Source: Streptococcus sp. SN-1
Lineage (GTDB): Bacteria > Bacillota > Bacilli > Lactobacillales > Streptococcaceae
DNA: 64,000 nucleotides
Assembly: GCF_041154385.1 (NCBI RefSeq)
Contig: NZ_AP028929.1
Span: 992,001-1,056,000 of the forward strand
Reading direction: 5' to 3'
The notes beneath the pieces were generated by a model. That model worked only from the letters and a program-made list of their open reading frames with translations, was not told where the DNA came from and did not search any database. This document shows, in pieces, positions 725 to 2,698 of the stretch (position 1 is its first letter; the number at the start of each line of letters is the position of its first letter). The translations under genes and the position numbers were made by a program.

Positions 725-733
725 TGGTAAAAT
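725..733 (+). promoter_or_regulatory. Extended -10 promoter of ligA, predicted leaderless
   Basis: TGG then TAAAAT (728-733) is an extended -10 box. Exactly six bases separate it from ATG 740, placing +1 on the A of the start codon. No Shine-Dalgarno is possible in that space. A weak -35 (TTGTGA, 704-709) sits 18 bp upstream. Confidence 0.5.
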
Positions 734-739
734 GGTTTT

Positions 740-2698
740 ATGAATAAAAGAATGAATGAGTTAGTCGCCTTGCTCAATCACTATGCAACTGAGTACTATA
801 CCAGCGATAATCCCTCGGTTTCAGATAGTGAGTATGATCGCCTTTACCGAGAGTTGGTTGAGTTAGAAACTGCCTATCCAGATCAAGTGTTAGCAGATAG
901 TCCGACCCATCGTGTTGGTGGCAAAGTCTTAGATGGTTTTGAAAAATACAGTCATCAGTATCCTCTTTATAGTTTGCAGGATGCTTTTTCACGTGAGGAG
1001 CTTGAAGCTTTTGACGCGCGTGTTCGTAAGGAAGTGGCTCATCCGACCTATATTTGTGAGCTGAAAATCGATGGCTTGTCTATCTCGCTTACTTATGAAA
1101 AGGGGATTTTAGTTGTTGGTGCAACACGTGGAGACGGTTCTGTTGGGGAGAATATCACAGAAAATCTTAAGCGTGTTAAGGACATTCCTTTGACCTTGCC
1201 AGAAGAACTAGATATCACAGTTCGTGGGGAATGTTACATGCCACGCGCTTCTTTTGACCAGGTCAACCAAGCTCGCCAAGAAAATGGAGAGCCTGAATTT
1301 GCCAATCCTCGTAATGCGGCGGCAGGCACACTACGTCAGTTGGATACAGCAGTAGTTGCCAAGCGTAATCTTGCGACTTTCCTCTATCAAGAAGCCAGCC
1401 CTTCAACTCGTGACAGCCAAGAAAAGGTTTTGAAGCACCTAGAACAGCTCGGTTTTGTAGTCAATTCTAAACGAATTCTGGCTGAAAGCATGGATGAGAT
1501 TTGGAATTTTATCCAAGAAGTAGGAGAGGAACGGGACAATCTGCCTTATGATATCGATGGGGTGGTGATCAAGGTCAATGACCTAGCAGGTCAAGAAGAA
1601 CTTGGTTTTACCGTTAAGGCTCCAAAGTGGGCAGTGGCCTACAAGTTTCCTGCTGAGGAAAAAGAAGCTCAACTCTTATCAGTTGATTGGACAGTTGGCC
1701 GTACGGGTGTTGTAACCCCAACTGCGAATCTAACACCAGTACAACTAGCCGGAACAACTGTTAGCCGTGCGACCCTGCACAATGTGGATTATATTGCTGA
1801 AAAAGATATCCGAAAAGACGACACGGTTATCGTTTATAAGGCTGGTGACATCATCCCTGCTGTTTTACGAGTGGTAGAGTCCAAACGGGTTTCTGAAGAG
1901 AAACTGGATATCCCTACAAACTGTCCAAGTTGTAACTCTGACTTGCTGCACTTTGAAGATGAAGTGGCCCTGCGTTGTATCAATCCGCGTTGCCCTGCTC
2001 AAATCATGGAAGGCTTGATTCACTTTGCTTCTCGTGATGCTATGAATATTACAGGCCTTGGTCCATCTATTGTTGAGAAACTCTTTGCTGCTAATCTGGT
2101 TAAGGACGTGGCAGATATTTATCGTTTGAAAGAGGAAGATTTTCTTCTTTTAGAGGGGGTTAAGGAAAAGTCTGCTTCTAAACTGTATCAAGCCATTCAA
2201 GCATCTAAGGAAAACTCTGCTGAAAAACTCTTGTTTGGACTAGGGATTCGCCATGTCGGAAGCAAGGCCAGTCAGTTGTTACTTCAACATTTTCATTCAA
2301 TTGAAAATCTGGCTCAGGCAGATCCAGAGGAAGTGGCTAGTATTGAAAGTCTGGGTGGTGTGATTGCCAAGAGTCTTCAGACTTACTTTGCTACAGAAGG
2401 CTCTGAAATTCTCCTCAGAGAATTGAGAGAAGCTGGGGTCAATCTGGACTATAAAGGTCAGACAGTAGTTGCGAATGCGGCCTTGTCAGGTTTGACCGTG
2501 GTATTGACTGGAAAATTGGAACGTCTCAAGCGCTCAGAAGCTAAAAGTAAACTCGAAAGTCTGGGTGCCAAAGTGACAGGCAGTGTTTCTAAAAAGACCG
2601 ACCTCGTCGTGGCAGGTGCAGACGCTGGAAGTAAACTGCAAAAAGCACAAGAACTTGGTATCGAGGTTCGAGATGAAGCTTGGCTAGAAAGTCTGTAA
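740..2698 (+). CDS. ligA: NAD+-dependent DNA ligase LigA
   Basis: Seals nicks in duplex DNA using NAD+, in replication and repair. The 652-residue length is usual for bacterial LigA. Seen in order: N-terminal Ia domain; adenylation domain with the KIDG motif (AMP-accepting Lys109); OB fold; a four-cysteine zinc finger (CPSC...CINPRC, about 397-419); helix-hairpin-helix repeats ([32 protein letters not shown]); and a C-terminal BRCT domain (from about 575, [19 protein letters not shown]). ATG 740 is the only sensible start because the conserved N-terminus begins there, yet it lacks a Shine-Dalgarno and lies six bases after an extended -10 box. Identity is certain; the leaderless reading is inference. 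Confidence 0.98.

Follow-up and report, generated by a model that had tools for sequence, protein, structure and literature searches.

Leaderless mRNAs in streptococci and related bacteria

A leaderless arrangement is known for roughly a tenth of streptococcal operons (PMC6212727; PMC6431027). In S. pneumoniae D39V, transcription of 70 of the 768 operons (9%) begins on the first base of the coding sequence (Slager et al. 2018, PMC6212727), and leaderless translation was demonstrated for pbp2A of S. pneumoniae D39 (PMC6212727). Leaderless mRNAs were reported to make up 8.6% in S. pyogenes and 8-9% in S. agalactiae. These two species have 54 leaderless genes in common, 39 of them also in S. pneumoniae, and the mRNAs come from extended -10 promoters like those described below (PMC6431027; PMC4448216). 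The gene holA was reported as leaderless in S. agalactiae; in the form available to us, both accounts name few genes (holA, gbs0266) and give no depth beyond those species (PMC6431027; PMC4448216).

The closest single case is cpoA of S. pneumoniae, for which 5' RACE placed the transcript end on the A of the ATG and lacZ fusions showed leaderless translation (PMC3901891). As in the genes studied here, its -10 region is conserved in S. mitis and S. oralis, but the study dealt with one gene, and none of the present candidates received the name cpoA. For Lactococcus cremoris, a leaderless share of about 13% was reported (PMC10986495). A computational study across bacteria from 2011 described a TA-like box just before the start of leaderless genes, as observed here, with TG preceding the box in several low-GC genomes (PMC3160421). 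According to the same study, leaderless genes of the Firmicutes are concentrated in Lactobacillales (Lactococcus-Streptococcus and others) and Mycoplasma; initiation signals are related to operons, and the rate of signal change rises with distance.

Four genes with a -10 box at the start codon

The genome analysed is a single contig of 2.11 Mb. The window, meaning the whole stretch of DNA that was analysed, is 64 kb long (C1:992001-1056000). Four of its genes carry the features listed below.

693..724, + strand: intrinsic-terminator-like hairpin (693-716) and tail, adjoining the ligA -10 box (consensus match only)
725..733, + strand: extended -10 box TGG-TAAAAT of ligA (sequence reading; box and N6 present in all 80 named loci compared, the 80 best of 353)
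734..739, + strand: 6-base discriminator GGTTTT of ligA, with pyrimidines at -1 and -2 (sequence reading; spacing peak)
740..2698, + strand: ligA, NAD-dependent DNA ligase, the A of its ATG being the predicted +1 (ORF; NCBIfam)
14957..14965, - strand: extended -10 box TGA-TATACT of the DUF1694 gene (sequence reading)
14504..14950, - strand: DUF1694 gene, leaderless candidate (ORF; Pfam PF07997)
32183..32191, - strand: extended -10 box TGG-TATAAT of tex (sequence reading)
30047..32176, - strand: tex, S1-domain protein, leaderless candidate (ORF; Pfam Tex domains)
44633..44641, - strand: extended -10 box TGA-TATGAT of pgdA (sequence reading)
43235..44626, - strand: pgdA, peptidoglycan N-acetylglucosamine deacetylase, leaderless candidate (ORF; NCBIfam NF045820)

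The pattern TGnTAnnnT-N6-ATG is exact in all four cases, the upstream sequences being TGGTAAAAT-GGTTTT-ATG for ligA, TGATATACT-GTTTTC-ATG for the DUF1694 gene, TGGTATAAT-AGATTC-ATG for tex and TGATATGAT-GGTCTT-ATG for pgdA. For tex, the start is the ATG at 32176 and not that of the longer TTG frame at 32209, as the ATG start is conserved in relatives. All four genes start with ATG, so that the predicted +1 is A, and have T or C at -1 and a pyrimidine at -2 as well. No Shine-Dalgarno (SD) match of at least 4 bases lies at -18 to -5 before any of the four ATGs. An SD precedes some possible start of 44 of the 54 window ORFs, a generous count given the crude ORF caller and the choice of the best of several starts. 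The first-pass annotation had described boxes ending six bases before four start codons, which is right to the base. Its placement of the transcript start on the A of the ATG is very likely right too, judging from the spacing peak, the missing SD, the bases at -1 and +1, and conservation.

The following explanation is proposed. Each of the four genes would be transcribed from a housekeeping sigma-A extended -10 promoter, the box of which ends six bases before the ATG. Transcription would start on the A of the start codon, giving an mRNA with neither 5' leader nor SD, and ribosomes would attach straight to the 5'-terminal AUG, through the 70S or a related route established elsewhere. The four genes would thereby belong to the ordinary leaderless class of the Streptococcaceae, with several dozen genes in this genome and no dedicated regulon, and the layout of ligA would seemingly go with its separation from pcrA. 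This explanation as a whole is held with high confidence. The leaderless status of all four genes is very likely because of the spacing peak, the absence of an SD, the pyrimidine at -1, the A at the predicted +1, conservation, and the published transcript maps of relatives. As 64% of the promoters in S. agalactiae reportedly contain TGn (PMC4448216), the layout looks like an ordinary vegetative promoter. The finding is a correct observation of an already known class; a pattern read by eye has now become a quantified case of it.

Spacing between the box and the start codon

The spacing was profiled in 844 kb of sequence, made up of the window and 39 stretches of 20 kb spaced evenly over the genome, in which 736 ORFs were called by a crude length rule. 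TGnTAnnnT boxes lying outside other ORFs were counted relative to ATG starts. At spacing 6, the profile peaks with 16 ORFs against a background of 2.0. With the window excluded as an independent test, the 39 stretches hold 12 ORFs at this spacing against 1.9 (P 8.5e-7), and the spacings 4, 5, 7, 8 and 9 hold 5, 4, 5, 1 and 0 ORFs. The earlier judgement that chance is unlikely is thus confirmed outside the stretch in which it was made. Within the window, the four genes are the only ORFs with TGnTAnnnT 0-11 bases before the ATG, and all four have it at exactly 6; with a background of 0.09 per spacing (spacings 8-18), the Poisson P is 2.6e-6. The window is a little dense in such ORFs: its 64 kb hold 4 of them, the remaining 780 kb of the sample 12 (P 0.018 in a post hoc test). 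A broad hump of boxes near spacings 25-37 comes from ordinary led genes. A bump of 6 ORFs outside the window has TGnTAnnnT 1 base before the ATG, perhaps through wrong start choice.

Boxes of the type TAnAAT lacking TGn give no peak at spacing 6 at the starts of the 736 sampled ORFs (1 vs 2.3), and the bare TAnAAT pattern, TGn boxes included, occurs 147 times genome-wide against 61 for the reversed control. The genome-wide count of the full pattern, which the first-pass annotation had named as a check, comes out in favour of the class, if weakly in raw form (105 vs 67 for the reversed pattern, P 0.002). An ORF of at least 60 aa is begun by 40 of the 100 listed hits (of 105), which makes the bare pattern noisy; the raw excess is weak because many hits lie elsewhere than at gene starts. 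A slightly stricter pattern was found 56 times against 9 in G018, a distant Streptococcus whose LigA is 68% identical. Exact spacing between -10 box and ATG at ORF starts therefore recovers leaderless candidates from the genome, independently of RNA data.

The bases around the predicted start point the same way. The base at -1 is T or C in 36 of the 40 hits that start an ORF in this genome; in G018, the same holds for all 31 ORF-starting hits, compared to 9 of 25 hits starting no ORF of 60 aa (P 5e-8). Among the mapped starts of S. pneumoniae, +1 is A in 63% of the cases, and -1 is T in 51% but A in no more than 16% (PMC6212727). The candidates thus resemble D39V in their bias to T at -1 and A at +1, and pbp2A has the same layout in this genome. 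Taken together, the -1 bias of the candidates and that of the mapped starts support initiation on the A of the ATG.

Conservation of the layout in relatives

For each of the four genes, TGnTAnnnT-N6-ATG was found in 30 of 30 loci, the genome's own locus among them, with no SD match. The best-matching named LigA loci (S. mitis, S. pneumoniae and relatives) are 97-99% identical. Among the 80 named ligA loci, which have 39 distinct upstream sequences, the box is 97% conserved per position compared to 62% for the preceding 30 bases. In 20 distant streptococci, the ligA box stands at N6 in 18 loci and at N7 in 2, and one of the 20 has an SD match of 4 bases.

Outside the genus, 32 genomes of Streptococcaceae were searched for ligA and 30 matched; the best 23 gave loci, and 7 more divergent ones, including g4 and g6, were left out. 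A TGn box at N6 (18 loci) or N7 (2 loci) was present in 20 of the 23 examined loci, from four genera. The single locus of genus g7 is SD-led, and the two of genus g5 are ambiguous. The position of the ligA start codon differs between genera, in most cases by 2-4 codons, and the promoter moves along with it at a constant distance. In other families, the best-matching 24 of 34 genomes gave loci (10 left out), and the layout occurs in 0 of these 24 (P 2e-10 vs the Streptococcaceae genera). A caveat on these counts is that the start-choosing rule used across genera favoured starts with a nearby TGn box; in the 24 loci of other families it found none.

To see which gene precedes ligA, the longest frame on its upstream side was inspected in 13 loci of Streptococcaceae and in 6 of the outgroup. 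In 4 outgroup loci, a profile scan identified this frame as PcrA; its end lies no more than about 50 bases from the LigA match in 3 of them and about 500 bases away in 1. The fifth outgroup frame is PcrA-like by its C-terminus, and the sixth is not. None of the 13 Streptococcaceae frames is PcrA-like by its end. Two that were scanned are MATE transporters, and the profile scan gave no match for one Streptococcus frame or for the window's own upstream ORF. The leaderless layout of ligA seems to go with its separation from pcrA, the examined ligA genes of other families being SD-led. However, one of the 13 loci, that of g7, is SD-led even though nothing resembling PcrA was seen upstream of it; separation from pcrA is therefore not always accompanied by the leaderless layout.

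The layout of tex drifts. Read by eye, all 20 distant streptococci have a TATAAT box 6-10 bases before the ATG (N6 in 2, N7 in 6, N8 in 1, N9 in 10 and N10 in 1); 18 of the 20 have no SD match, and 2 have one of 4-5 bases. In the ten N9 loci (L251-L254, L256, L258-L260, L266, L267), the box is followed, by eye, by N6, an in-frame ATT or GTT and the ATG. These ten loci possibly carry a 3-base leader, and the predicted tex leader would range from 0 to 4 bases among streptococci. The strand of tex also has an Rfam match to the 'skipping-rope' RNA, about 320 bases upstream of the gene (window 32499-32578, - strand).

For the DUF1694 gene, 8 of 20 distant streptococci show the leaderless layout and 12 an SD match; most of the SD-led loci have, by eye, a TATAAT-like box some 20-35 bases upstream. 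One locus, L193, has a wholly different upstream region, yet TGGTAAAAT-N6-ATG is retained. For pgdA, the layout was found in 3 of 20 distant hits and not in 17; these hits are 32-44% identical, many may be paralogues, and their starts, mostly not placeable by tblastn, were set from coordinates. Three near loci (L220-L222) have GGAGGT immediately before the pgdA ATG, at a distance too short for a normal SD. The sequence TCATTGAAATTAT (window 44652-44664, - strand), which lies upstream of the pgdA -10 box, is, by eye, well conserved in near relatives (L200-L228). This region could be a -35 element (TTGAAA, 17 bp spacer) or an operator.

Alternative explanations

The closest alternative is a very short leader, with at least one of the four transcripts starting 1-4 bases before the ATG. 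In 18 of the 20 distant tex loci, the box lies 7-10 bases before the ATG (by eye). Moreover, starts in S. agalactiae were reported to fall on average six bases past the -10 box, which allows a start one base upstream of the ATG, and about 30% of the promoters there start at clustered positions (PMC4448216). However, the positions -1 and -2 are pyrimidines in all four genes, and mapped streptococcal starts prefer purines. Of the 81 D39 operons whose leader is too short, 70 have their transcript start on the first base itself (PMC6212727). Near-leaderless initiation is hence regarded as unlikely for these genes. Far less probable is that the boxes are chance products of AT-rich DNA, with real promoters further upstream or real starts downstream. 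The bare pattern is indeed common, and no ORF of 60 aa begins at 60 of the 100 listed hits in the genome. However, the peak at spacing 6 is seen at ORF starts, and conservation is much higher in the ligA box than in the sequence next to it. In addition, no alternative start with an SD of at least 4 bases exists in the first part of ligA, the DUF1694 gene or pgdA; tex has one 4-base match, before an inner GTG. Of the alternatives considered, this one is given the least credence.

The first-pass annotation had also suggested that these genes might share a stress behaviour. A shared stress regulon would exploit the selective translation of leaderless mRNAs, which was described for E. coli in stress or cold and is cited in a study suggesting common streptococcal regulation (PMC6431027). 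That the four stand apart as a special set, or are co-regulated, is not supported. The four are among 36 family-supported ORFs of many functions that have the layout, and its phylogenetic depth differs for each gene: ligA keeps it across most of the examined Streptococcaceae, tex drifts, and the DUF1694 gene and pgdA have it in part of the distant loci, as given above. By eye, no upstream element common to the four was seen. A shared stress behaviour of the four is unsupported, and a dedicated stress regulon is considered very improbable. The genes are better described as ordinary members of the leaderless class.

Functions of the leaderless candidates

Of the 40 ORF-starting hits, NCBIfam assigned 27 to a family and Pfam a further 9, which makes 36 with a family match. 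These include RlmH, RuvB, TsaE, UvrC, YaaA, PabB, PlsY, RlmB, an ABC-F protein, LigA, Tex, PgdA, FtsK, MutY, RibF, MurT, RlmD/RumA, a TrmH-like protein, RsuA-type and RluA-type pseudouridine synthases, RlmA and PBP2A. Some of the names, FtsK, LysR, RsmC-like, TrmH-like and RlmA among them, come from matches that do not reach NCBI's curated cut-off. Of the 56 hits in G018, 31 begin an ORF of at least 60 aa, and 17 of these 31 are homologues of candidates in the first genome. A further G018 hit resembles HolA by eye.

SD-led genes with their own extended -10 promoter served as controls, 60 of 100 being annotated. RNA-modification enzymes account for 9 of the 40 leaderless candidates and 2 of the 60 controls (MiaA, TadA; p=0.004), a comparison that favours the candidates, as controls were scanned at E 1e-30, while E 1e-15 or 1e-10 was used for the candidates and ten of these were scanned with Pfam as well. 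The N-termini of the 22 controls with no family were viewed by eye only. Including one Pfam-only methyltransferase, the count rises to 10 of 40 (p 0.002). With family-matched proteins only, it is 9 of 36 vs 2 of 38 (p 0.018), and leaving out three names below the cut-off (RsmC-like, TrmH-like, RlmA) gives 6 of 40 vs 2 of 60 (p=0.043). DNA repair alone gives 4 of 40 vs 2 of 60 (p 0.17). In G018, RNA modification was counted in 4 of 31 against the same 60 controls (p 0.10), with names taken by homology to the first set, so that given the 17 shared homologues this count is not independent.

The leaderless genes may thus lean towards RNA-modification enzymes, which is a lead. The survey of all genomes reported that the leaderless share is high in COG A but low in COG J (PMC3160421), in contrast to the present data from one Streptococcus, in which rRNA/tRNA-modification enzymes look enriched. 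E. faecalis and E. faecium were reported to show no enrichment among their 13 and 10 leaderless mRNAs (PMC7724050). In the literature passages searched, those of PMC6431027 among them, there was no report on functional classes of streptococcal leaderless genes or on the genes named here.

A more far-reaching idea, regarded as unlikely, is that selection maintains leaderless initiation in Streptococcaceae as a channel with a functional bias. Enzymes of rRNA/tRNA modification and DNA repair would be kept leaderless across long distances, and their translation could track the state of the ribosome (70S availability, under-modified ribosomes) apart from SD-led genes. Genes leaving an operon, such as ligA from pcrA-ligA, would enter the channel by gaining an extended -10 box at the start codon. 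Should the functional lean and the separation of ligA from pcrA hold, they would provide a testable reason for long-lasting leaderless housekeeping genes: these would have minimal promoters after leaving their operon, possibly insulated from read-through, since a longer transcript would offer no SD.

The position of leaderless promoters directly behind a terminator-like hairpin (ligA, uvrC, rlmB, pabB and others) was also considered and dropped as unproven, as the excess depends on the cut-off. Compared to 99 of the 100 SD-led controls, abutment was found in 8 of 37 vs 14 of 99 at -10 kcal/mol (p 0.21), 7 of 37 vs 7 of 99 at -12 kcal/mol (p 0.05) and 7 of 37 vs 2 of 99 at -14 kcal/mol (p 0.002; Mann-Whitney p 0.054). 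In the distant Streptococcus, the count was 3 of 31 at -12.

Other observations in the window and the genome

Rfam matches in the window, all on the - strand, comprise the SpR19 sRNA (42124-42245), the Spd-sr07 sRNA (29212-29274) and a pemK leader (50395-50457). Elsewhere in the genome, pbp2A and a gene for an RluA-family pseudouridine synthase are divergent, both with TGn-N6-ATG and with start codons less than 90 bases apart (G000:C1:1881199-1881290; L065:9201-9288). A hydrophobic small protein of 64-67 aa, for which NCBIfam gave no match, has the leaderless layout in both genomes compared (G000:C1:1297738 and L317; 39% identical). A GAF-domain gene about 2 kb from it has the layout in both genomes too. 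Seven copies of TAGAATTACCAAATG lie on the minus strand within 2.5 kb (G000:C1:1080588-1083053) and probably belong to a repeat-rich gene.
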